Source of the DNA: Gammaproteobacteria bacterium
Lineage (GTDB): Bacteria > Pseudomonadota > Gammaproteobacteria > Arenicellales > Poriferihabitantaceae
Length of the DNA stretch: 64,000 bases
Reading direction: 5' to 3'
NCBI GenBank assembly: GCA_030432755.1
Contig: JAUILZ010000002.1
Span: 1 to 64,000, forward strand
A program made the translations under genes and the position numbers. Of this stretch, positions 7,950 to 33,428 are shown in pieces (position 1 is the stretch's first letter; every line of letters begins with the position of its first letter). The notes under the pieces were generated by a model, which ran no database searches, was not told where the DNA came from, and saw only the letters and a program-made list of their open reading frames with translations.

Positions 7950-9059
7950 GTGCTACCGCCAGTGGCTACTCACGCCCTGTCTCCATCCGGTCGTCACCTG
8001 TTGCTGTTGACCCGGGGACATACCGACTTTACCAACCAGATCGACCCGTTCGAAATCCACGCGGCGCAACTTGCCCGACGGGAGATTCATGTGCGCAAGG
8101 CACTCTGGGATGCGCCCCTGGCGGACGATGTGCTGGACTTTCCCTGGACCGCGGTGCTGTTTCACTACCGTCTGTCCCGCGAGTACCCGTTGCCATGGCT
8201 CGCGGGACTGCTTGCCAACCTGAGGGAGTTGGTGCCCGGTTGTCCCATTGTGCTGCTCGACGACCACGGCAGTCCCTATGTCCCGATGATGCGGCTTTCA
8301 AACCTGGTGGATCTCTACGTCGCGGAGTGCCTGCCGCGTGACCGTCGCTGGTGGAGTACCACCGGCAGTCACTGGGAACGGCCGCTCGAGCACAGGCTGC
8401 GGCGCATCCTGGACGATCCCCCTGAAGACCCGGCACCCTATCGCGCGGAACCGGAAGGACCGCTGCCGGCGAATTTCCACCTGGGCTGGAACATCGCGCT
8501 CGATCGGCGTTATTACTCGGAATACAATCATCCCGCGGGATGGAACCGCCCCGCGGAAGATCGCCCCAATGCCATTCACTGTCGCATCGGCGTGGACCCG
8601 GACATGCCGGATATCCTGCAACGTCATCGACTGCGCGCCCTGCAAGCATGCGGCGCGCTCGCCGGCAATCATGCGGTGATCAGCAGTCCGGAACGCATCC
8701 CGCACGACGATTACCTGCGCGAGATGCTGGATAGCCAGGCAGTTCTTTCACCCTATGGCTGGGCCGAGGTCTGCTTCCGCGACTTCGAGGCCATCGCCTG
8801 TGGAAGCCTAATGATCAAGCCCGATATGTCCCACCTGGACACAGCTCCGGACATCTACCACGACGGGGAAACATGCGTGATCGTTCGCGCTGATTTCGGC
8901 GATCTCGAGGAAAAGCTCATCCACTATGCAAGCCGCCCCGATGAACGCACGGCGATCGTGCGAAACGCCCATGAACGGTTCCGGGAATTTCTCGGCGACG
9001 ACTGGTTCGCGAACCAGGTCTGTGCACTACTCGATCGACTGGTGGAACTGCGCCAATAG
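7950..9059 (+). CDS. Glycosyltransferase family 1-like protein
   Basis: About 369 residues. The C-terminal third looks like the nucleotide-sugar-binding half of a GT-B enzyme (Glyco_trans_1_2 type): SPYGWAEVCFRDFEAIACG followed by a DMSH...YHDGETCV segment, the usual pattern for this region. The N-terminal half is divergent and contains a motif-poor receptor domain. Donor and acceptor are unknown. The start is uncertain: the frame is open far upstream with no ATG near, and GTG codons at 7950 and 7962 are the first plausible starts, neither with a clear ribosome binding site. It opens the accessory glycosyltransferase island. Confidence 0.7.
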   Translation: MLPPVATHALSPSGRHLLLLTRGHTDFTNQIDPFEIHAAQLARREIHVRKALWDAPLADDVLDFPWTAVLFHYRLSREYPLPWLAGLLANLRELVPGCPIVLLDDHGSPYVPMMRLSNLVDLYVAECLPRDRRWWSTTGSHWERPLEHRLRRILDDPPEDPAPYRAEPEGPLPANFHLGWNIALDRRYYSEYNHPAGWNRPAEDRPNAIHCRIGVDPDMPDILQRHRLRALQACGALAGNHAVISSPERIPHDDYLREMLDSQAVLSPYGWAEVCFRDFEAIACGSLMIKPDMSHLDTAPDIYHDGETCVIVRADFGDLEEKLIHYASRPDERTAIVRNAHERFREFLGDDWFANQVCALLDRLVELRQ

Positions 9060-9118
9060 CAAACGCATGGAGCATCAGATACCGATTTCCGCCGGCGGCA
9101 CACTGTCACTCCTCCGCA

Positions 9119-9148
9119 TTGACCCGCTTCGCGCGCAGGTGCTAGCAT
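9119..9148 (+). promoter_or_regulatory. Putative sigma70 promoter for the 9292 gene
   Basis: TTGACC at 9119-9124 and TAGCAT at 9143-9148 are separated by 18 bases. It would give a leader of roughly 135 bases before the gene at 9292. The rest of the 9060-9291 gap shows no gene. Confidence 0.35.
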
Positions 9149-9291
9149 GTGAAAGTTATATGGTGGAGGGGTGTTCACCGCGTGCAGCCTGCAAGAACAT
9201 GCTATCGGTCCCGGTACGGCAATAGCCGCGCCAAACAGGTCACGGCGATCCCCTGTTTCAGTAATCCTTTCGACCCCAAGGGAGTCATGAC

Positions 9292-9882
9292 ATGAAAGAT
9301 GTGCACCGCAAACCGGATTCACCGGAAGAAAAATCAGTCAACGAAACGCGATCACAGGACAGGGAAAAAGCACGCCGTCGGCTGCTCCGCAATCTCGCCG
9401 CCGGCGGTGGCGTGGCGGCGCTGGGGGCGGCCACGCCGGACAAGTGGACGCGCCCGATGGTGGATTCCGTTCTCCTGCCAGCCCATGCATCCACCTCCGT
9501 GGTACAGAGTTTTACCGGCGCCGTGGCGACGCCGTTTGCTTCGGACGATGGCACCATCCTCGACTTCTTCGTCTCGAAAGCCTACGCGGCGGAATGCAAC
9601 GGGATCACGTTGCCGGAAGCCAACACGCCGGTCTGCATCCAGGAAACTCTCTCTGGTGTACTGATCACGTTTCTCGGAGGTTCCGGTTTCGGCACCCTGG
9701 CGCAGCTTGGATCCGGGGGCATTGGCGTTTCCGCGGGCGGTCTCGCCTATATCTTTTCCGGCTCCCTGACCAGTGGACAGATCAACGTCTCCTGTGGCGG
9801 CGGTGGAGGCGGCAAGTCGAAAGGGGGCGGAGGCACCGTGCGGACCTCCAGCTATGCAAGCGTGCCTGGCGCCTGCGCCTGA
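9292..9882 (+). CDS. Twin-arginine-like secreted peptide with Gly/Cys-rich tail
   Basis: A 196-residue protein of unknown function. Residues 1-30 are highly charged. An RRRLLRN stretch then precedes a short Ala/Gly-rich segment, resembling a Tat signal or a leader. Next comes a conserved-looking motif, DKWTRPMVDSVLLPAHAST (about residues 50-68), which I recall from other proteobacterial proteins of unknown role. The middle carries two cysteines (AAECNG, PVCIQ). The C-terminus is low-complexity: a cysteine, six glycines, a second glycine run and a terminal GACA. AAGGGAG seven bases before the ATG supports the start, and a strong terminator follows. Next to a PqqD-containing enzyme it could be that enzyme's peptide substrate (inference). 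Confidence 0.65.
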   Translation: MKDVHRKPDSPEEKSVNETRSQDREKARRRLLRNLAAGGGVAALGAATPDKWTRPMVDSVLLPAHASTSVVQSFTGAVATPFASDDGTILDFFVSKAYAAECNGITLPEANTPVCIQETLSGVLITFLGGSGFGTLAQLGSGGIGVSAGGLAYIFSGSLTSGQINVSCGGGGGGKSKGGGGTVRTSSYASVPGACA

Positions 9883-9914
9883 TAGTTACACGGAGCGCTT
9901 GACTCAACTCCCGG

Positions 9915-9938
9915 GGCCCGGCAATGCCGGGCCTTTTT
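9915..9938 (+). terminator. Rho-independent terminator
   Basis: GGCCCGGC (9915-9922) pairs with GCCGGGCC (9926-9933) around a three-base loop and is followed by five T residues (9934-9938). It ends the transcript of the secreted-peptide gene. It has no T-run on the minus strand, so it does not serve the convergent gene. Confidence 0.85.
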
Positions 9939-9975
9939 CGTAGCGCGGACGGCACGGCCGGCCAAACACAGCGTA

Positions 9976-12180
9976 TCAGGCCGGCCGGAGCGCCGCGAGC
10001 CGCGCGACCCAGGGCGCGTAGATCCCCAGCCGGCTGGCCTCGCGGAAGAGAACCCGGGCGTCCATCCAGTCCGCCCGGTTGATGCTGTCGGCCGCCAGCG
10101 CATCGTCTATGGCCTCGTCGGTGAATCCCGGCCCGAGAAATGAAGCGTCTGCTCCTGCCACCCGCGCCATCAACCCGGTCATCACGCACTTTACACAGGT
10201 GCCGCAATTGGTGGCCCGGTGACCCTCCTGCCAGCACACCCGCAGGTTCGTCAGCGCTTCCGGCCACGAGGCCAGGTGGCGCATTTTATCCAGCCGGTTC
10301 AGGTGTGCGCCGTCGTGCACGATGGTAAATCCGTCGCGGCCCATCCAGGAATCGGTGAGTGGATTGCTGCCCCAGGGCATCATCGCGTTGTAGGCGAAGG
10401 TAGAGGGAATGAGGCCGTGGGAACAGCCGCGTGAGAGCAGGGTGAGGCAAGCGGCGGCGGCCAACCCGTGGGCTTCCGGCCACTGGCGGTTGAAGTCCCG
10501 CAGGTTGGTGGTCATCTCCTCCAGCGCCACCCCTTCAATCGGCATGAACCGGCGGATCCGCTCCAGCGCCACGCGCCAGGTCGCGCGATCCTCCCAGGGG
10601 ATGTCGAAGCCGCGCACGACGAGCGCGGTATCCATCCGGAAGCGCGCCGGTTCTTCCCCTATAATGGCATGACGGTAGACAGTCTCGCAGGAATCCAGCC
10701 CGCCGGAGAAGCAACTGATCGCGCGCTGTTCCTGACTGTCCGCGGAATCGTCCAATGTCTCGCCGACGATCGAAATGACCGCAAGATCGGAGTTCCAGCA
10801 ATGCCATGCACGCTGGTACTCCCGCAGGTTGTATAGCAGCGAAGCGGAAACCGGCGCGCCGCGCACCCACAGGTCGTCGCCGGACGCCATGCAGCCGTAC
10901 AGGCAGGCGAGCACGAACGGATCCGCGGTGCCAACCAGCCGGTCGCGTAGGCGGCCATCGACCTCGAACCAGAGTTCCCCCACGTCAACGACGTCCGTCG
11001 CCAGGGTCGCGCACAATCGCAATCGACCACCGACTTCCCGCGGCGACTGGATCGTCAGGACCCGCATGCCTGGACGTCGCCTGACCGAGCGCGCGACGGG
11101 ATTGTCGTAGGGGGTCAGCAAGCCCTTGTTCCAGTATTCGCGGGCAAACCGGTCGACGCTCGCGGCTGCCTCGCCGGCCGGAAGCCGGTCGTCTGTGATC
11201 TCTCGGGCAAGATCGCGGAAGCTGCGTTGGCCATCCATCAGCGACCAGATGCGCAGCGAGGTATCATCCGGTCGCGCCAGGATTTCGCCCTCGGCATCCT
11301 GGAAAACCACGGCCTCCCCGCCCGCTGCCCGGATTCCCGTCATGGCCGCGGGACGCGCACTCCAATCGATGCGCCGGGACTCGTAGCCCGCCACTTGCTC
11401 CCCCAGGGCATGGCGTACCGGCACGGGATCGAAATCGATGCCGTGGAGATCGTCGCGCCAGCCGCAGCCGAGCTCGGCGAGCCAGCTCTCGTACATACCA
11501 CGATTCTTGTGATAGCTGTTGGGCAGCAGGGTGGCCTCGCGACCGATCAGGAGCGCCGCGACCGCGAAATGCAGTCGATCGGTAATGACATGGGCGCACG
11601 TCGCCGCCAGTCCCATGTACTGGTCCACGGTCTCGCAGCAGCGGACGGGGTCCACCACCGATCGCGCATCGTCGACGAACAGGCCTTCCTGGTTGGTGCG
11701 CAGGAAAACACCGAGCGCGAAGCGCGGGGAACCGGGGTCCCAGGGGTAGTCCACCGCGAGCGCGGTATCCGGGCCGAGTCCCGTAACGCCGGCGAACTGG
11801 AGGCTGTAGCGCTCGCGCGCCCACACGCCTGCATATCGTGACAGGTCCTCGCCGGGCCCGGTGATACTTTGAGGCAGGATATACAAGGGCCGACCGGTCT
11901 CCAGCGCCAGTTCCCGAAGTTCCACCGGTTCCGGGTAAGCCGGGCCGAGATTGCCACCACCGGAAACCACGATGGCTTCGACCCGGCTCATGTGCCTGGC
12001 ATCGAACAGGCGACGCCAGTCGAGCTGGCGGTAATCAATCTCCCAGCTATCGAACAACTGGCGCGCGCCGAGATCGATGAGACGGTCACCGACGTTGCCC
12101 GGCAGTGGCAGGAAGCCGATGCGCAACCCGCGAAAATGTTCGACGACTTCCCCGAACGCCGCGTGATCAACCAGTGGCAT
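9976..12180 (-). CDS. Tripartite pyruvyltransferase-like / PqqD-like / PP-loop ATPase protein
   Basis: A 734-residue multidomain protein. Residues 1-280 resemble polysaccharide pyruvyl transferase (CsaB/ExoV type): PLPGNVGDRLIDLGARQL, VVSGGGNLG, YILPQSITG and TDRLHFAVAALLIG. Residues 288-352 resemble PqqD, the fold that binds peptide leaders: RPDDTSLRIWSLMDGQRSF then a helix ending in YWNKGLL. After a beta-rich linker, residues about 490-680 form a PP-loop ATP pyrophosphatase: SGGLDS near 492, VVRGFDIPWED, and a C-terminal NCGTCVKC that could bind zinc or a cluster. The pattern recalls an uncharacterised PP-loop family with a GFDI and NCGxCxKC signature. It overlaps the upstream glycosyltransferase gene, so the two are coupled. 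The start is ATG 12180 or 12192. Substrate unknown. Confidence 0.75.
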   Translation of the reverse strand: MPLVDHAAFGEVVEHFRGLRIGFLPLPGNVGDRLIDLGARQLFDSWEIDYRQLDWRRLFDARHMSRVEAIVVSGGGNLGPAYPEPVELRELALETGRPLYILPQSITGPGEDLSRYAGVWARERYSLQFAGVTGLGPDTALAVDYPWDPGSPRFALGVFLRTNQEGLFVDDARSVVDPVRCCETVDQYMGLAATCAHVITDRLHFAVAALLIGREATLLPNSYHKNRGMYESWLAELGCGWRDDLHGIDFDPVPVRHALGEQVAGYESRRIDWSARPAAMTGIRAAGGEAVVFQDAEGEILARPDDTSLRIWSLMDGQRSFRDLAREITDDRLPAGEAAASVDRFAREYWNKGLLTPYDNPVARSVRRRPGMRVLTIQSPREVGGRLRLCATLATDVVDVGELWFEVDGRLRDRLVGTADPFVLACLYGCMASGDDLWVRGAPVSASLLYNLREYQRAWHCWNSDLAVISIVGETLDDSADSQEQRAISCFSGGLDSCETVYRHAIIGEEPARFRMDTALVVRGFDIPWEDRATWRVALERIRRFMPIEGVALEEMTTNLRDFNRQWPEAHGLAAAACLTLLSRGCSHGLIPSTFAYNAMMPWGSNPLTDSWMGRDGFTIVHDGAHLNRLDKMRHLASWPEALTNLRVCWQEGHRATNCGTCVKCVMTGLMARVAGADASFLGPGFTDEAIDDALAADSINRADWMDARVLFREASRLGIYAPWVARLAALRPA

Positions 12181-13357
12181 GGCTACGGACATCCTCCCCG
12201 CGACGCGACGCGGCGATCCGCGCGGCATGTTCCAGCGCCTCGCAGGCCATTCTGCCGTTATAGCGCCAGTCGTCCCGCGGATCGGCCAGGCGGGCACTCA
12301 TCATCCCACGCCTGGCAAGTTCGTCTGCAGGCAGTTCGAGGAGCGCGCTCAGCTTTGCCGCGAGGTCGGACTCGTCACCGGTGCGGAACACCTGGTCCGC
12401 GGGTAACCGCAGGTCACCCTCCTCCACCATCACCTCGCTGATGAACACGGGTTTCGCGTAGGCCCTGGCCAGGTTGTAGACCCCGCTCTGGATACCCTCG
12501 AGATAGGGCAGCACCACGAGGTCGCAGGCGCGGAACAGGGTCTCGATCTCGTCGGTCCCAAGGTGCCTGGTGATGCGTTCGACATCGCTGCACCCGGCGG
12601 TGATGCGGGCATCCTCGGCGTGCCAGCTTTCGACCCTGTGATGCTCGAGGTTGGTATGACAGACCAGGCGCGTGCCCGGATGCCGACGCCGGACTTCGCG
12701 AAACGCGCGCACCAGCAGGGACACGCCCTTGCCTGCCCGCGCCATGCCGAAGTTCAGCAACATCCGCTGGTCACGTGCGAGGCCGAGTGACGCCCGCGCG
12801 GCATCCCGGGTCACGGTGTTCCTGGCAAGCAGGTGATAGGCCGGGTGCTTCGCCACCCGGATACGCTCCGCGGGTATGCCACTGAAGGCGCGCAGGCGCG
12901 ATTTTTCCCGCTCACTCGCCACCAACACCGTATCCAGCAATGCGTACTGACTGCAGAGCCGGTCCATGGATACGCCCTGGTCGGAAAATGGCATAACCTC
13001 GTGCAATACCGCGCAGATACCCATACCGGCTTCCCTCATACCGGCCATCAACTCGCTGTAGAACGAGGTGAACACCTTGCTTCGCTGCGCCAGGTGCAGT
13101 AGCGCCACCGTGGAATCGAGATCGCAGGCCGCCTGGACCATGCTGACGATGCTTTCCCGGTCGTCGACGTCCAGTACTTGCCGGTATCCGATGCCGACGT
13201 CTTTCCAGAGGGTGTCCACCAGGTCTTCCCGATACGTGAGCGCGGTGGGGCGGAAGCGCTCCGCCAGGATGGACCACTGGTGCGCGAGATATACGGCCAG
13301 ACCCCCGTCACTTGCACAGACGACGGGCAAGGCAGGCTTGGGTGGTTGTAGAGTCAA
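12167..13357 (-). CDS. Glycosyltransferase, GT4-like
   Basis: A 396-residue GT-B-fold glycosyltransferase candidate. The second half has the retaining GT4 features: LLNFGMARAGKGVSLLVRAF (start of the donor domain), a segment ending in DLVVLPYLEGIQSGVYNLARAYAKPVFIS that corresponds to the ExxxxG/S donor-binding loop, and a short alpha-helical tail. The N-terminal acceptor domain is divergent but has HEVMPFSDQG and a predicted Rossmann pattern. Its last 14-26 bases overlap the start of the tripartite gene, so they form a two-gene operon; the enzyme may act on the same product. Donor and acceptor cannot be read. Confidence 0.78.
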   Translation of the reverse strand: MTLQPPKPALPVVCASDGGLAVYLAHQWSILAERFRPTALTYREDLVDTLWKDVGIGYRQVLDVDDRESIVSMVQAACDLDSTVALLHLAQRSKVFTSFYSELMAGMREAGMGICAVLHEVMPFSDQGVSMDRLCSQYALLDTVLVASEREKSRLRAFSGIPAERIRVAKHPAYHLLARNTVTRDAARASLGLARDQRMLLNFGMARAGKGVSLLVRAFREVRRRHPGTRLVCHTNLEHHRVESWHAEDARITAGCSDVERITRHLGTDEIETLFRACDLVVLPYLEGIQSGVYNLARAYAKPVFISEVMVEEGDLRLPADQVFRTGDESDLAAKLSALLELPADELARRGMMSARLADPRDDWRYNGRMACEALEHAARIAASRRGEDVRSHATG

Positions 13358-13438
13358 TTGGGGTAAGTTGGTGTCGTTTTGCCCCGGCTGGCGCGCACCG
13401 GGCGGGAGGCGAGCCGGACGCCACGCCAGGACAGCGAG

Positions 13439-13444
13439 TATAAT
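13439..13444 (+). promoter_or_regulatory. Consensus -10 box upstream of the 13507 gene
   Basis: A perfect TATAAT lies 63 bases before the ATG at 13507. The matching -35 region is poor (GGACGC about 17 bases upstream), so this may need an activator. The gap 13358-13506 holds nothing else recognisable. Confidence 0.35.
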
Positions 13445-13506
13445 GCCGCGGCAGTTTCACGCCACCTTCCCCGCCCACGGGCAACGATCCTCGACACGCT
13501 CCCTCC

Positions 13507-14337
13507 ATGTCCCGCCAGGACCGCAACGACCCGTTCGCGCGCCGCGACCTGACCCTGATGCTCTGCTCGCACAGCCGCGCGCATTGCCTGCCGGGCCTGC
13601 TCGAGCGGCTCACCGCGCAGGATTATGAGGGCAACGTCGAAGTCATCCTGTGGAACAACAACTACGCCGACCGCGAGATCCTGGACGCCGTGGTGGACGA
13701 TTTCGCGCAATCCCTGGACATCCGCCTCATCCATTCGCGAAACAACTACTACTGCGCGCCCCGCCTCGCGGCGCCGGCCCTGATGCGCAGCGACATGCTG
13801 CTGGTCTGTGACGACGACGTGCTCCCGGAGCCCGGGTACATCCGCGGGTTTCTCGACGCCTACCGGGAGCTTGGGCCCGAGGCGGTGCTTGGCGCCACGG
13901 GTCATATCTTCCTGCCACTGCCCGAGGATGACGCGGCGCCGGAAGAGGTGATCTGGCGCAATCCCGGGCACCGTCTCTCGTTGCGCCAGAAACATGCGAC
14001 CAGCCGGGTACATTTCCTGCATGCCAACAACTATCTCGTCCCGCGGTCGGTGCTGAGCCGGCTGGCGACCCATACCCCGCCCAGCCCCGACTTCGTCCTG
14101 GTGGACGACTACTGGATGTCCTACGTGCTCGATCACGTCATGGGGGTGCCGCTCTACAAGATCCAGAGCGACCACCTGCTCACCTTCGACCCGTCGGCGG
14201 ACGACCCGGAACGGGCGTTGTGGCTGAATCCGGAGGTCGTGGCACGCAAGCTCGCGTTCTGCGCATGGCACCTCGCGCGCGGATGGCCGGATTTCAGCCG
14301 CGACCTGGCAGCGAGCTATCACGCCGGTAGCGCCTGA
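13507..14337 (+). CDS. GT-A-fold glycosyltransferase (GT2/GT64-like)
   Basis: A 276-residue protein with a GT-A nucleotide-sugar fold: an opening beta strand (DLTLMLCSHSR), a VILWNNN segment, the metal-binding CDDDVLPEPGYI (about residues 99-110) and an acidic LVDDYWMSYVLDH (about 198-210) that would hold the catalytic or second acidic site. The DDD motif together with the late DD is reminiscent of exostosin-like GT64 enzymes as well as GT2. No membrane anchor is visible, so it is likely cytoplasmic. It is the only plus-strand gene between two minus-strand transferase genes, and its 3' end overlaps the neighbouring gene by 19 bases tail to tail. Confidence 0.72.
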   Translation: MSRQDRNDPFARRDLTLMLCSHSRAHCLPGLLERLTAQDYEGNVEVILWNNNYADREILDAVVDDFAQSLDIRLIHSRNNYYCAPRLAAPALMRSDMLLVCDDDVLPEPGYIRGFLDAYRELGPEAVLGATGHIFLPLPEDDAAPEEVIWRNPGHRLSLRQKHATSRVHFLHANNYLVPRSVLSRLATHTPPSPDFVLVDDYWMSYVLDHVMGVPLYKIQSDHLLTFDPSADDPERALWLNPEVVARKLAFCAWHLARGWPDFSRDLAASYHAGSA

Positions 14338-15443
14338 GCGCGCGCGCGGCCGACCACCTCGCGGCAGACCCGGTCCATGGCGGACTTGCCGGCAAATTCG
14401 CTGACAAACTCCCTTCCCGCTTTGCTCATACGTCGCCAATCGTCCGGATTGTCGTGGGCCGCCGCCAGGACTTCGGCAAAATCCCCGGGATCAGCGGCGA
14501 CGTGCATGTCGGAAAACGGCGCGAGCTGGGCGGCGATCAGCGGCGAAACCACGAGCGGCAGCCCGTGGGCCATGGCCTCGAGTCCTTTCCAGGGCAGTCC
14601 GCCGGCAATCAACGTGGGAATCACGAACAGCCGCGCGCGAGCATAGAGGGGAGACAGCTCGGGCACGAATCCGAGCATTGTCAGGCCATCCCGCGAGGCG
14701 CCCGGCGGCAGGCGGAGCGTGTCGGTACCGAACCCCGCCACCGACAGCGCCAGGGGCTTGCGCCGTCGCACCCGGGGGAGGATGTCGCCAACAAGCAGGT
14801 TCACCACGCGCTGGGTCGGGTGGCGCGGGTAGTTGCCGTTGACGAAAAGGATGCCACTGCGTTCCGCGAAGGGCGGTAGCAACGACGGCAGCGCGAGCTC
14901 GCCCGGCAACACCTCTACCGGCGCGGTGCGATGCAGGCGGATGAATTCCCGGTCCCGGGGTCCGGCGCAGACCACCAGCGGAGCGTCCCGGTACTCCGCC
15001 ACCTCCGCGGCCAGCATATTCTCTTCGGCAGCCGGGCTCACGTCGTGCCCCCGCGCCCGCGCCAGTTCCGCATCCCGGGGAGCGGTAACGGCCTCGGCAT
15101 CGAATACCCAGGACGCGTTACCGCCGATCAGCCCCGCCTCGCGAAGTGGCGCAAGATTACGCCGCCGCGACACCCAGACGAGATCGTATCCCGGCACGCG
15201 ACGCGCGAGCGCGGGCAGGGATCGGGCAATGGATTCACCCTCCCCGCCGGCCAGCCTCGCCCCGGTGTCGTTGAGTTCCCGCAGACGCGCCGGGGGCGGT
15301 GGGGCCAGATCCTGCAATGCCAGGAAATCCACCACGGCGCCCGCACGTACCAGTCCACGCAGGATGGACAGCGCCCGGGGAAATCCATAACCGAGCCCGG
15401 CCCCCGGCACGGCGTCGTCGCAGAAGAGAATACGCGGCTTCAC
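14319..15443 (-). CDS. Glycosyltransferase, GT-B fold (GT4-like)
   Basis: About 374 residues. The C-terminal donor domain is recognisable: ILFVNGNYPRHPTQRVVNLLVGDILP, a central LGFVPELSPLYARARLFVIPTLIAGGLPWKGLEAMAHGLPLVVS block and a DPGDFAEVLAAA helix, all characteristic of GT4-type enzymes. The N-terminal half contains LFCDDAVPGAGLGYGFPRA, a glycine-rich acceptor-domain loop. I choose a GTG at 15441-15443 because it lies directly after the stop of the upstream gene (15448) and the protein then begins with a beta strand; the frame is open to 15554 but that part overlaps the upstream gene. Confidence 0.75.
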   Translation of the reverse strand: MKPRILFCDDAVPGAGLGYGFPRALSILRGLVRAGAVVDFLALQDLAPPPPARLRELNDTGARLAGGEGESIARSLPALARRVPGYDLVWVSRRRNLAPLREAGLIGGNASWVFDAEAVTAPRDAELARARGHDVSPAAEENMLAAEVAEYRDAPLVVCAGPRDREFIRLHRTAPVEVLPGELALPSLLPPFAERSGILFVNGNYPRHPTQRVVNLLVGDILPRVRRRKPLALSVAGFGTDTLRLPPGASRDGLTMLGFVPELSPLYARARLFVIPTLIAGGLPWKGLEAMAHGLPLVVSPLIAAQLAPFSDMHVAADPGDFAEVLAAAHDNPDDWRRMSKAGREFVSEFAGKSAMDRVCREVVGRARAQALPA

Positions 15444-15447
15444 GATG

Positions 15448-16632
15448 TCAGTCTGGTGGTCGCGGACGCCACGGCGGAAAGTCGACCACGCCGGCAGCGT
15501 TGGCAGCGCCGATGAACGCGTCCAGCATCCCGAGCGCTTGCATGTAGCGGACACCCGCGCGCTCCGCGTGCAGCACGGCGAGCTGCTGGACGTTCAGGTT
15601 TCCGTCGAGCCGGTCACGGAGCCAGTGCAGCTCAGGCGGCAGCAACGGCATTGCCCCCGCGGGGACTACCCGGGGGCGCCGCGCCAACTCGACAGGATCG
15701 CGGCGCGGCTCCCGCGGCAGGGTGAGGGTCGAGCTTCCCGCGCGATACGCCGACTCGCCCGGGCAATAGGTATCCAGCCGGGGATCATGAATATCGATCC
15801 GCATACCGCCGGACTCCAGGAATTCCTGCAGACGTGCATGTTCCGCGAGCCGCCATGCCTCGCCGGCGGTAGCCACGCCCACCGGCCGGGCCTTCATCTC
15901 CCGGCTGCGTCCGTGCACCCCGGCGGACCACTTGTAATGATCCACCGTCACATGCGCCAGCGCGGCGGGACAGCCCGTGCCGTTCAGCGCGTGGTGCTGG
16001 CCCTCGGTGAGGCGCACCCCGGGTCGGATGAGCGGTACCTTGTACTTCCAGGCGCCCATGATCGCACCGGTAATGTCCGCCACCAGCGGAAACTGTCCGG
16101 CCGGATCGCCGGATGACAGTTCCGCGAGTTCTCCATCCGCGGTGACGCGGTCCCGCAACATGCCGCAGACGTAGTCGTAACCGTCCTGCGCGCACAACGC
16201 GATCAATTCGTCGAGCGCCATGGGAAAGCGCGGGAACTCGTCGAGATCGCTGACGACCACCCAGTCCGCGTTGCCGCAACGGCTTGCCAGGCAGCGCTCG
16301 CGCCGTGCCACAAGTCCGTCGTAGTGACCGGAATGGACATTGGCGATTTCCGCGTCGAACGCCCGCGCACGGCGGTGCAGGTCCCGCAGCGCGACCGTGT
16401 CATCTGCTGACCGGAGATGCAGGTCCAGCAGGATTCGATCGACTCCCTGGGTCCTGGCCCAGGCAAGATGGGCCTCGAGCAGCCCGGTATCCGGGCCGAC
16501 GGGAATATAGGCGAACAGCGTCAACGGAGCGGATTCATGATTCGCGGTGGTTCGAATGGACGGCGCCGCAGGCGGACCGTTGGAAGTTGGCGGCGCGCCT
16601 GCCGGATACGTTACCATCCGGGCCCGCCGCAA
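15448..16632 (-). CDS. Glycosyltransferase family 2 (Glyco_tranf_2_4-like)
   Basis: A 394-residue protein. From about residue 36 it matches the Glyco_tranf_2_4/GT92 pattern: LFAYIPVGPDTGLLEAHLAWAR, a long helix, VVVSDLDEFPRFP with the metal-binding DxD, then HVTVDHYKWSAG. The N-terminal 30 residues are Pro/Ala-rich and probably disordered, so the true start may be later. The last 60 residues (LDGNLNVQQLAVLH ... AAGVVDF) have a helical rhythm like that of a PqqD/winged-helix domain, a weak resemblance. It ends five bases before the next gene starts and is divergent, 13 bases apart, from the oxygenase gene at 16646. Confidence 0.72.
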   Translation of the reverse strand: MRRARMVTYPAGAPPTSNGPPAAPSIRTTANHESAPLTLFAYIPVGPDTGLLEAHLAWARTQGVDRILLDLHLRSADDTVALRDLHRRARAFDAEIANVHSGHYDGLVARRERCLASRCGNADWVVVSDLDEFPRFPMALDELIALCAQDGYDYVCGMLRDRVTADGELAELSSGDPAGQFPLVADITGAIMGAWKYKVPLIRPGVRLTEGQHHALNGTGCPAALAHVTVDHYKWSAGVHGRSREMKARPVGVATAGEAWRLAEHARLQEFLESGGMRIDIHDPRLDTYCPGESAYRAGSSTLTLPREPRRDPVELARRPRVVPAGAMPLLPPELHWLRDRLDGNLNVQQLAVLHAERAGVRYMQALGMLDAFIGAANAAGVVDFPPWRPRPPD

Positions 16633-16645
16633 ATGACCCCGTTAC

Positions 16646-17437
16646 ATGTCTCTCGATCCGGAAACGTTTCACCAGAGCCTGGAATCCCGGCATTTCGCCC
16701 GGGTACCCCATGGCATGGCGTCGGGGGAACTGCAGGCAGCGGCGGACGCCTTTCTCGCATTTCTCGCGCTGCCGCCCGCAGTGAAGCGGCAACTTCATTT
16801 TAGCGCACGCAGCCCGCGCGCGAGCGCCGACGGATACACTGACAAGACCACCATCGAGCGCAAGGACCCGAAAGAGTTCTTCCACTGGAGCCCGGCGCTG
16901 ATGGCGCGGGAACCCTGCATTGAACTCGCCGCCAGCGAACCGGTGGTGGCCCGTTTCTTCACTGCCGCGGAGCGCATCTTCGCGCAGGTCGAGGCCGTGC
17001 TTTGGGATGTCTATAGCAGTTGCCTGCCCGAATACAGGGAGCGCATCTTCCGCGACGGCCGCCTGGTGGACGGCATCCTGCGATTCCTCTGCTACGCTCC
17101 GCGACCGGAACATGCCTTCTGCGCGCGCGCCCATTTCGACAAGGGATTCAGCACCCTGGCGCTCGCCGACAGCGCCGCCGGCCTGCGCATCGGCTGCTGC
17201 AATGATCACCCCCTCGAACCGGTTCGCCATGCCGACGGCAGCGCCATCTTCATGCCCGCCTGGATGTTGTTCAAGGCATCGAACGGCACGATCAAGCCGT
17301 CCTGGCACGACGTCGTGCACCAGCCCGGTGAGCAGGACGTCAGCGCGATCTGCGCGCGCTGGTCCATGGTTTTCTTCGTCAACGATCCCGGTACGCCGTT
17401 TTCCGAGTGGGACACGGTGCATACGCCGCTGCACTAA
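16646..17437 (+). CDS. 2-oxoglutarate/Fe(II) or isopenicillin N synthase-like oxygenase
   Basis: A 263-residue protein of the double-stranded beta-helix oxygenase superfamily. The iron-binding facial triad is visible: H and D in ARAHFDKGFSTL (about residues 166-168) and the distal H in HDVVHQPGE (about 220-224). The C-terminal RWSMVFFVNDPG carries the arginine usual for 2-oxoglutarate binding. The N-terminal region (FLAFLALPPAVKRQLHFS) resembles the LP..VK segment of the isopenicillin N synthase-type N-terminal domain. Substrate is unknown; the neighbouring glycosyltransferases and tripartite enzyme suggest tailoring of a small molecule, peptide or glycan. Confidence 0.8.
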   Translation: MSLDPETFHQSLESRHFARVPHGMASGELQAAADAFLAFLALPPAVKRQLHFSARSPRASADGYTDKTTIERKDPKEFFHWSPALMAREPCIELAASEPVVARFFTAAERIFAQVEAVLWDVYSSCLPEYRERIFRDGRLVDGILRFLCYAPRPEHAFCARAHFDKGFSTLALADSAAGLRIGCCNDHPLEPVRHADGSAIFMPAWMLFKASNGTIKPSWHDVVHQPGEQDVSAICARWSMVFFVNDPGTPFSEWDTVHTPLH

Positions 17438-32057: not shown

Positions 32058-32894
32058 TCAGGGTCCGGGTTCTTCCCTGGTGGCAGTAGTCGCGGTAACG
32101 GCGGAATCGGCTTCCGCTGGCTCTTCCTCTTCGTCCGCGTCTTCCTCTTCAGCTTCTTTCTCCGCCTGCTTGCGGGCGATGAAACGCGAGGCATGGACGC
32201 CGAGCTCGAACAGCAGCCATACCGGCACCGCCAGCAATGTCTGCGAGAAGATATCCGGCGGGGTCATCAACATGCCGACCACGAAGGCGCCAATGATGAT
32301 GTAGGGGCGCTTCTTCACCAGGTCGTCCGGCGTGGTGATGCCGAGCTTTACCAGGATCACCGTCGCCACCGGCACCTCGAATGCCACGCCGAAGGCGAAG
32401 AACAGCTTGATGACGAAGCTGAAGTAGGCGTTGATGTCGGTCATCACCTGCACACCTTCCGGCGCGCTGTTGGCGAAGAAGGCGAAGATGATGGGAAACA
32501 CCGCGAAGTAGGCGAACGCGATGCCAAGGTAGAACAGCAGGCTGCTGGATACCACGATGGGCAGCGCGAGCCGCTTCTCGTGCTGGTAGAGGCCCGGCGC
32601 GATGAACGCCCAGGCCTGGTAAAGAACATAGGGAATCGCGATGGCGAAGGCGCAGGCGAAGGCGAACTTGAACGGCACGAAGAACGGGCCGTGGGGCTCG
32701 GTGGAGATCATGCTGTTGCCTTCCGGCAGGGCCGACATCAGCGGACGCGCCAGGATCTCGTAGAGTTCGTTGGCGAAGGGCACCAGGCAGACGAAAATCA
32801 CCACCACCGCCAGGATCGCGCGTAACAGCCGGTCGCGCAGCTCCAGCAGGTGGGAGATCAGGGTGCCTTCACCCGTGGTGTTGTCCTTGCTCAT
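32058..32894 (-). CDS. tatC: Sec-independent translocase TatC
   Basis: A 278-residue polytopic receptor subunit of the twin-arginine translocase, which binds RR signal peptides. Family motifs: [16 protein letters not shown] at the N-terminus, [17 protein letters not shown] and [11 protein letters not shown]. Six helices are present. A charged C-terminal tail of about 40 residues ([11 protein letters not shown]) extends it beyond the 250-260 usual length. It is the last gene of hisBHAFIE-tatABC, six bases after tatB. Confidence 0.95.
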
Positions 32895-32900
32895 CGGGAC

Positions 32901-33428
32901 TTACTGCGCGGGAGAGGATTTCCCCGCGGCCTTCGAGGTATCGGTGGCCCCGGTCTCGCCGGCGGCGGCTTCGCCCTGGCCCCCGCTTTCCCCGGAAACG
33001 CTTTCCCCGGAAACGTTGTCGGCGGAAACGCGACTCGCTGAACCGTCCTCCGCGGCCAGTTTCTTGCCGGCGGCATCGATATCCTTCAACTCGCTGGCGA
33101 GTTCCTCGCCCACCGGCGCGGCATCCTTGAACGCCTCCTTGAGTGAGCCGCTCACTTCCTCCGCGCCACTCTCCTTGCGCAGGTTGTTCGCCGCCTTGTC
33201 CACCTCCTTGCGCACGCTGTCGAGGCCTTCCTTGACGTCCTTGAGCTCGTTCATCTCGCTGGCCTTGATCTCGCGGTCGATGTCCCGCTTGACGTCCGCG
33301 ATCATGCGCCGGCCCTTGCCGATCCACAGACCGGCGGTGCGCGCGAGGCCGGGGAGGCGTTCCGGGCCCACGATGATCAGCGCCACCACGCCGATCACCG
33401 TCAGTTCCCAGAAACCGACGTCAAACAT
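32901..33428 (-). CDS. tatB: Twin-arginine translocase subunit TatB
   Basis: A 175-residue protein with the TatB N-terminus (MFDVGFWELTVIGVVALIIVGPERLPGL), one membrane helix followed by an amphipathic helix, then a long charged tail (residues about 60-175). TatB partners TatC in signal-peptide recognition. The tail is Glu/Ser/Gly-rich and contains two exact 15-base tandem repeats coding GESVS (see 32985). The length is typical for a TatB with an extended tail. It lies between tatA and tatC, six bases before tatC. Confidence 0.93.
   Translation of the reverse strand: MFDVGFWELTVIGVVALIIVGPERLPGLARTAGLWIGKGRRMIADVKRDIDREIKASEMNELKDVKEGLDSVRKEVDKAANNLRKESGAEEVSGSLKEAFKDAAPVGEELASELKDIDAAGKKLAAEDGSASRVSADNVSGESVSGESGGQGEAAAGETGATDTSKAAGKSSPAQ
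32985..33029. repeat. 15-base tandem repeat inside tatB
   Basis: GCTTTCCCCGGAAAC occurs twice in tandem (32985-32999 and 33000-33014), and a third, degenerate copy follows to 33029. The 15-base unit keeps the reading frame, so copy-number change would lengthen or shorten the disordered tail only. Confidence 0.7.

Follow-up and report, generated by a model that had tools for sequence, protein, structure and literature searches.

What does an enzyme act on when a polysaccharide pyruvyl transferase-like (PST) domain, a PqqD-type peptide-binding domain (RRE) and an ATP PP-loop region are joined in one chain? Such a PST-PqqD-PP enzyme is encoded at 9976..12180 on the minus strand of the 64,000-nucleotide gammaproteobacterial stretch analyzed here (the window). 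A sequence-only reading had recognized the three parts and proposed an ATP-dependent modification of a peptide or glycan. Our results support this proposal and sharpen it to a guided protein modification, probably of a glycan on the protein, as judged from sequence comparison. They add a QatC/QueC-like fold for the PP-loop region, an older PST/PP-loop pair free of PqqD, and a large family of leaders related to that of the neighboring gene at 9292.

Fusion Enzyme

The gene starts with ATG at 12180 and encodes 734 residues in a single open frame (12297-9976, minus strand). Its 5' end shares 14 bases with the upstream glycosyltransferase gene (12167..13357, minus strand). The domain order is PST (residues 5-251), PqqD/RRE (approximately 283-354) and PP-loop region (369-730). 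Pfam detected PF04230 (E 2e-10) and gave PqqD 18.1 bits, below the 23.4-bit cut-off. No Pfam match was obtained for the PP-loop part, and an NCBIfam search of the ORF gave no match. A full-protein AlphaFold model was built from 16 sequences (mean pLDDT 83). Taken together, Pfam, profiles and modeled folds place all three parts in one ORF, and we regard the domain and fold assignments as almost certain.

The PST domain (11428..12168, minus strand) is polysaccharide pyruvyl transferase-like in its Pfam match, its fold and its TDRLH motif (residues 200-204; 11569..11583, minus strand). Residues 1-251 of the model match WbbZ (6x1l, Z 23.5) and the yeast pyruvyltransferase Pvg1p (5ax7, Z 20.3). Both were also found by a PDB profile search, in which TDRLH aligns with the TDRLH of Pvg1p. 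The Pvg1p/CsaB/WbbZ superfamily has the same fold and the same GGGN, TDRLH and PNSY-type motifs; the window PST differs in being joined to an RRE and a PP-loop region. The entry 6x1l describes its own protein as functionally uncharacterized. One Planctomycete PST (L152:1-471) is 52% identical to that of the window, nearer than the gammaproteobacterial orthologues, and a transfer between phyla is possible from this similarity.

The PqqD/RRE domain (11119..11334, minus strand) was assigned from profiles, AlphaFold and Foldseek. It is the most divergent of the three PST-PqqD-PP copies: PF05402 gives it 18.1-23.1 bits, just below the 23.4 cut-off, and the orthologues from G049 and G075 score 46.7 and 28.1 bits, both over the cut-off. 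A PqqD profile from which the three orthologues were left out singled out the fusion ORF among the 583 ORFs of the window (E 3e-5; the next ORF had E 2.5). The family profile also matched the PqqD crystal sequence 3g2b over residues 276-356 (E 0.0023). The suspicion that residues 288-352 are PqqD-like is upheld by structure prediction. An AlphaFold model of residues 270-365 (pLDDT 75, best of five models) resembles the lasso peptide B1 proteins 6jx3 (Z 9.4) and 5v1u (Z 8.9), and the top six Foldseek matches are all leader-bound lasso B1 proteins. The RREs of lasso B1, PqqD and StsC have this fold and a W/YxxP leader motif in common with the present system. In contrast to them, the window RRE lies between two sugar- or carboxylate-type enzymes, and its proposed substrate is a Tat-like protein of 100-300 aa instead of a short precursor.

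A PDB sequence search with one PP-loop protein gave no match, and the PP-loop profile gave weak ones (QatC, E 0.03). The region (residues 369-730; 9991..11076, minus strand) has an N-terminal beta extension and C-terminal helices. Its model matches QatC from the QatB-QatC complex (9y01_B) with Z 16.8 over 298 residues, spanning nearly the whole chain (2-454), as well as QueC (3bl5, Z 12.5) and Cap9 (Z 11.8). Both extensions are shared with the QatC of qatABCD. The SGGLDS pyrophosphate-binding motif (residues 492-497; 10690..10707, minus strand) is present as SGGxDS in most of the 21-sequence PP-loop family. The four-Cys zinc-type site CW-x8-NCGTCVKC (residues 649-665; 10186..10236, minus strand; pattern C-x9-CxxCxxC) is kept in 21/21 relatives, where the four Cys together with the N and the K form invariant alignment columns. 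Because of this conservation and the QatC/QueC fold, the C-terminal NCGTCVKC noticed at the outset is identified as the QueC-type zinc site. The SGGxDS loop and the four-Cys site are shared by QatC, Cap9 and QueC, and with C-x8-9-CxxCxxC and the QueC fold they place the region in the QueC superfamily.

CDG is bound by a YPD motif in QueC and Cap9 (PMC13329287, PMC13279940). In the interval from TNxR to the Cys site, the window protein has no CDG-recognizing YPD-type motif, nor have 20/21 relatives overall, and therefore CDG is probably not the substrate. Unlike QatC and Cap9, the window family instead carries the motifs PWGSxPLxD and HDGxxxxRxxK. PP-loop relatives of QueC are repurposed for protein and cofactor chemistry according to a 2026 survey (PMC13329287), whose main text does not mention polysaccharide, pyruvyl, PqqD or DUF6395.

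This kinship raises the possibility that the protein itself is modified. In such a case the RRE would deliver the neighboring LPAHA protein (see below) to the QatC-like site, which would join a small carboxylate to an amine or form a core amide, and the nearby glycosyltransferases would be unrelated or act on other targets. The QatC/Cap9-like fold of the PP-loop region fits this idea. An RRE fused to a modifying enzyme is, moreover, the classic RiPP layout, and QueC-family proteins conjugate to protein N-termini, Cap9 joining deazaguanine to CdnD (PMC13279940). The missing YPD motif speaks against it, as does the leader, which precedes a long core and so keeps the N-terminus far from it. Together with the polysaccharide-type loci described below, these points make direct modification unlikely.

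An anti-phage QatC role was considered and rejected, as PADLOC gave no hit for the enzyme and qat partners were not seen. The gene differs from qatABCD and type IV CBASS in its surroundings: no QatA/B/D or CD-NTase partner was seen, and its window neighbors encode glycosyltransferases, an oxygenase and an LPAHA protein.

Neighboring LPAHA Protein and Its Leader

The fusion gene lies in an island (~7986-17437) with five glycosyltransferases, an LPAHA gene and a 2OG-Fe(II) oxygenase (16646..17437, plus strand), the last being a possible member. A Glyco_trans_1_2 glycosyltransferase gene (7986..9059, plus strand, start approximate) precedes the LPAHA gene in the same orientation. The others are two GT4-like enzymes (12167..13357 and 14319..15554, both minus strand), a family 2 enzyme (13507..14337, plus strand) and a Glyco_tranf_2_4 enzyme (15448..16632, minus strand). 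The latter shares 37% identity over 251 aa with a GT-PqqD enzyme that stands beside an LPAHA gene in genome G056. Its last 60 residues were tried as a second window PqqD and rejected, since they align to the true GT-PqqD with profile scores that are not significant; this C-terminus may be a degenerate PqqD.

The LPAHA protein (9292..9882, plus strand; 196 aa) has a Tat-like leader and a variable core and is the proposed substrate. The conserved leader (9292..9489, plus strand; A2 profile) reads RR-x-LLR, then WxxP, then LPAHA, with WTRP at 9445..9456 (plus strand) as the proposed RRE recognition motif. The stop codons of the two genes are 93 bases apart in convergent orientation, and this lack of a co-directional order weighs against a guided reaction. 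Nevertheless, RR-x-LLR, WTRP and LPAHA are found again beside the fusion enzymes of G049 and G075. A relative of the 9292 peptide thus adjoins 3/3 loci of the same architecture, and the window copy stands among glycosyltransferases, in line with the expectation that homologues occur near a peptide or glycosyltransferase gene.

With the leader profile, eight copies were detected in the genome that contains the window, and as many as 20 in related genomes. W and P stand at fixed spacing in 62/66 unique leaders from the fetched loci, and twin basic residues occur in 63/66. Mean identity falls from 47% in the leaders to 16% in the first 40 core residues, and this is the pattern of a recognized leader. 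The locus thus resembles a RiPP cluster in its layout: the leader is conserved, the core is variable, and the enzyme adjoins the precursor at three loci. No Pfam or NCBIfam model covered the family in the tests made, and a literature search for the word 'LPAHA' returned unrelated text among the matches listed. Ser/Thr residues are more frequent in the cores of copies linked to an enzyme than in those of isolated copies (P 0.007, 12 vs 14 proteins). The three PST-PqqD-PP partner cores do not show this enrichment, and the modest Ser/Thr fraction of the window core (0.22) counts against the function proposed here.

One alternative is that the leader serves only as a Tat signal with an AxA-type cleavage site (LPAHA|xT). 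The WxxP would then have nothing to do with RREs, and both would co-occur because they are common in the same lineages and islands. The twin basic residues, the AHA ahead of the variable part and weak TAT profile matches are all consistent with this explanation. Furthermore, most sampled LPAHA/WxxP proteins lacking PqqD nearby sit alone beside housekeeping genes in the own genome and relatives (L125-L141). No PqqD was found near the 20 LPAHA loci L122-L141, and hence the leader is not restricted to RRE loci. Such copies may serve another purpose, depend on a discrete PqqD in trans, or have no such role. On the other hand, the leader combines W and P, invariant and at a constant spacing, with a hydrophobic PVVDSVVLP strand. 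To our knowledge, Tat signals need neither the invariant W/P nor a strand of this kind.

WxxP is, moreover, a measured recognition sequence. A 2025 article (PMC12710340) reports it for the PqqD-type RRE StsC, with double-Ala variants, and gives a W/Y/LxxP motif as common to the PqqD, FusE and McjB groups. PqqD also occurs in nearly all LPAHA genomes, so lone LPAHA copies could be served in trans. A mere Tat signal is therefore improbable in our estimation, and the RRE of the fusion enzyme likely binds the LPAHA leader, as the fold and the leader alignment suggest.

Distribution of the Fusion and of the PqqD-LPAHA System

A single-sequence scan of genome contigs confirmed no full-length relative, and an alignment scan retrieved 23 loci. 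The profile search for the full architecture, as the sequence-only reading had proposed, found PST-PqqD-PP in the window, G049 and G075 only, that is, in three gammaproteobacterial families of one order; one of the three loci is split by contig ends. PST and PP-loop enzymes are encoded more widely as separate adjacent genes, in Cyanobacteria (L145, L147, L150, L157), Anaerolineae (L146), Planctomycetes (L148, L149) and Gammaproteobacteria (L010, L039). A PST-PP fusion without PqqD occurs in G010 (L009) and a reverse PP-PST fusion in G284 (L034). That the two enzymes are found fused in either order is an argument for their acting jointly. By these sequence comparisons, PST and PP-loop form an older two-enzyme pair found without PqqD across phyla.

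Glycosyltransferases occur around the PST/PP pairs. An AsnB-like protein is the third neighbor of the PST and QatC-like PP-loop genes in L146, L157 and L149, a trio that thus recurs in Chloroflexota, Cyanobacteria and Planctomycetes. The Planctomycete pair of L149 also adjoins an ATP-grasp protein (8477-9739, minus strand) that resembles, below the cut-off, the L-aspartate--L-methionine ligase LdmS.

In Cyanobacteria, Chloroflexota and Planctomycetes, PST/PP pairs free of any RRE lie in polysaccharide-type loci, and this counts against direct protein modification. Such pairs are compatible with an ordinary surface-polysaccharide role, in which PST and PP-loop would pyruvylate and amidate a free or lipid-linked glycan, PqqD would be a structural or degenerate spacer, and the LPAHA gene a bystander. 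The PqqD-free orthologue of G010, the lack of an RRE in most PST/PP pairs, the weakness of the window PqqD and the multi-copy, scattered nature of the LPAHA family all fit such a role. However, the two orthologues, which come from other families, have kept a strong PqqD (54 and 56 bits). An LPAHA gene stands beside 3/3 PST-PqqD-PP loci, all of which were seeds of the leader profile, and beside 0/11 PqqD-less PST/PP loci; this difference is no more than suggestive, because some of the eleven come from phyla that may lack the leader family entirely. The same leader also stands beside many unrelated RRE-glycosyltransferases, including those in held-out genomes. A surface-polysaccharide role therefore appears slightly less probable still than direct modification of the protein.

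The wider system was surveyed in 14 genomes of the order, where PqqD occurs in short proteins or in ORFs of 280-1316 aa. The large ORFs carry GT2, GT4, GT7C, GT10, GT11, GT25, GT32 and GT90 domains, and further partners are sulfotransferases, LicD, a PhyH oxygenase and a PIG-L deacetylase. Almost all remaining PqqD partners thus act on sugars, a further point against direct protein modification. In these 14 genomes, which include profile seeds and were picked partly for their LPAHA copies, 9/37 large PqqD ORFs lie within 5 kb of an LPAHA gene (0.92 expected), compared with 3/41 short PqqD proteins (0.90 expected). The held-out genomes gave 5/19 large ORFs within this distance vs 0.09 expected or, counted by cluster, 2/14 vs 0.07 expected (P 0.002).

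Among 109 genomes, 38 contain both LPAHA and PqqD, 3 LPAHA alone, 8 PqqD alone and 60 neither. PqqD is thus present in 38/41 LPAHA genomes vs 8/68 without LPAHA, with a Fisher P of 6e-18 that ignores kinship and is therefore too small. PqqD/LPAHA pairs also occur outside the order (L199, L200). These relatives suggest a family of guided sugar-modifying enzymes. A point against it is that no LPAHA gene accompanies many of the PqqD-glycosyltransferase fusions within the stretch examined (L111-L121).

The densest PqqD/LPAHA locus seen (L196:6177-12480, in G056) has a GT32, a PIG-L-like deacetylase, a GT2-GT25 and a Glyco_tranf_2_4 enzyme, all PqqD-bearing, around one LPAHA gene. Two polypeptides (L111:368-2572 and L112:6884-9151) each link a hydroxylase and a glycosyltransferase to an RRE: a PhyH-type 2OG oxygenase and a GT7C galactosyltransferase are combined with PqqD and ankyrin repeats.

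Proposed Function

We propose that the fusion enzyme is an RRE-guided tailoring enzyme whose target, prior to export, is the LPAHA protein or the glycan it carries, an explanation to which we give somewhat better than even odds. In the cytoplasm, the PqqD domain would bind the WxxP beta-strand of the neighboring LPAHA leader. The bound protein, or a glycan built by the island glycosyltransferases, would then be held at the PST and QatC-like active sites. Whether the glycan on the LPAHA protein is the actual target is, in our judgment, evenly balanced. As the most likely chemistry, PST would add a pyruvyl group to a sugar, and the PP-loop region would use ATP to adenylate a carboxylate, either of the pyruvyl ketal or of a uronic acid. 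Transfer of the activated carboxylate, perhaps the one supplied by PST, to ammonia or an amine could then yield an amide or conjugate. We are least sure of the amide step, because it rests on the chemistry of the QueC family and on the AsnB-like neighbor in distant pairs; by this analogy, combined pyruvyl and amide chemistry is conceivable though rather doubtful. The modified LPAHA protein would finally exit through the Tat pathway, for which the organism has the machinery, as a tatC gene and a tatA/B/E-family gene in the window (32058-33428, minus strand) show.

Conclusions

RRE-glycosyltransferase fusions are known in bulk. As far as the accessible parts of the RRE-Finder papers show (PMC7470986, 2020; PMC12710340, 2025), PF00535 fusions are listed with no substrate named. 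In these, as here, PqqD/RRE is joined to a carbohydrate-active enzyme and is expected to recruit a ribosomal substrate; the 2025 text contains none of the words 'pyruvyl', 'PP-loop' and 'Tat'. A literature search, with subscription journals mostly outside it, found no work joining a PP-loop enzyme with a polysaccharide pyruvyl transferase. Within the same scope no earlier description of the LPAHA leader family or of the PST-RRE-PP architecture was found, in keeping with the first impression that no characterized enzyme has this set. As far as this search reaches, the PST-RRE-PP architecture and the candidate leader family are new.

Bacteria usually direct glycosylation to their proteins by means of short sequons or an oligosaccharyltransferase. 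In the present system, a glycoprotein is the likely target of the RRE-guided enzyme. It is possible, though we hold it somewhat short of an even chance, that this reflects a general modular protein glycosylation in which a Tat-type signal also works as a RiPP-style leader, its WxxP/LPAHA being read by interchangeable RRE domains. Such a pathway would draw on RREs fused to glycosyltransferases, sulfotransferases, a deacetylase, hydroxylases and the pyruvyl/QatC-like enzyme, and folded glycoproteins would be assembled in the cytoplasm and then exported. The LPAHA protein offers a concrete substrate candidate for the RRE-glycosyltransferase fusions listed since 2020. The fusion also places a QatC-like enzyme, of a type whose phage-defense reaction is unsolved, beside a candidate substrate outside defense. 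If the reading of one leader by swappable RREs is true, it would be a different way to aim sugars at a chosen protein, in which RiPP logic meets glycobiology.
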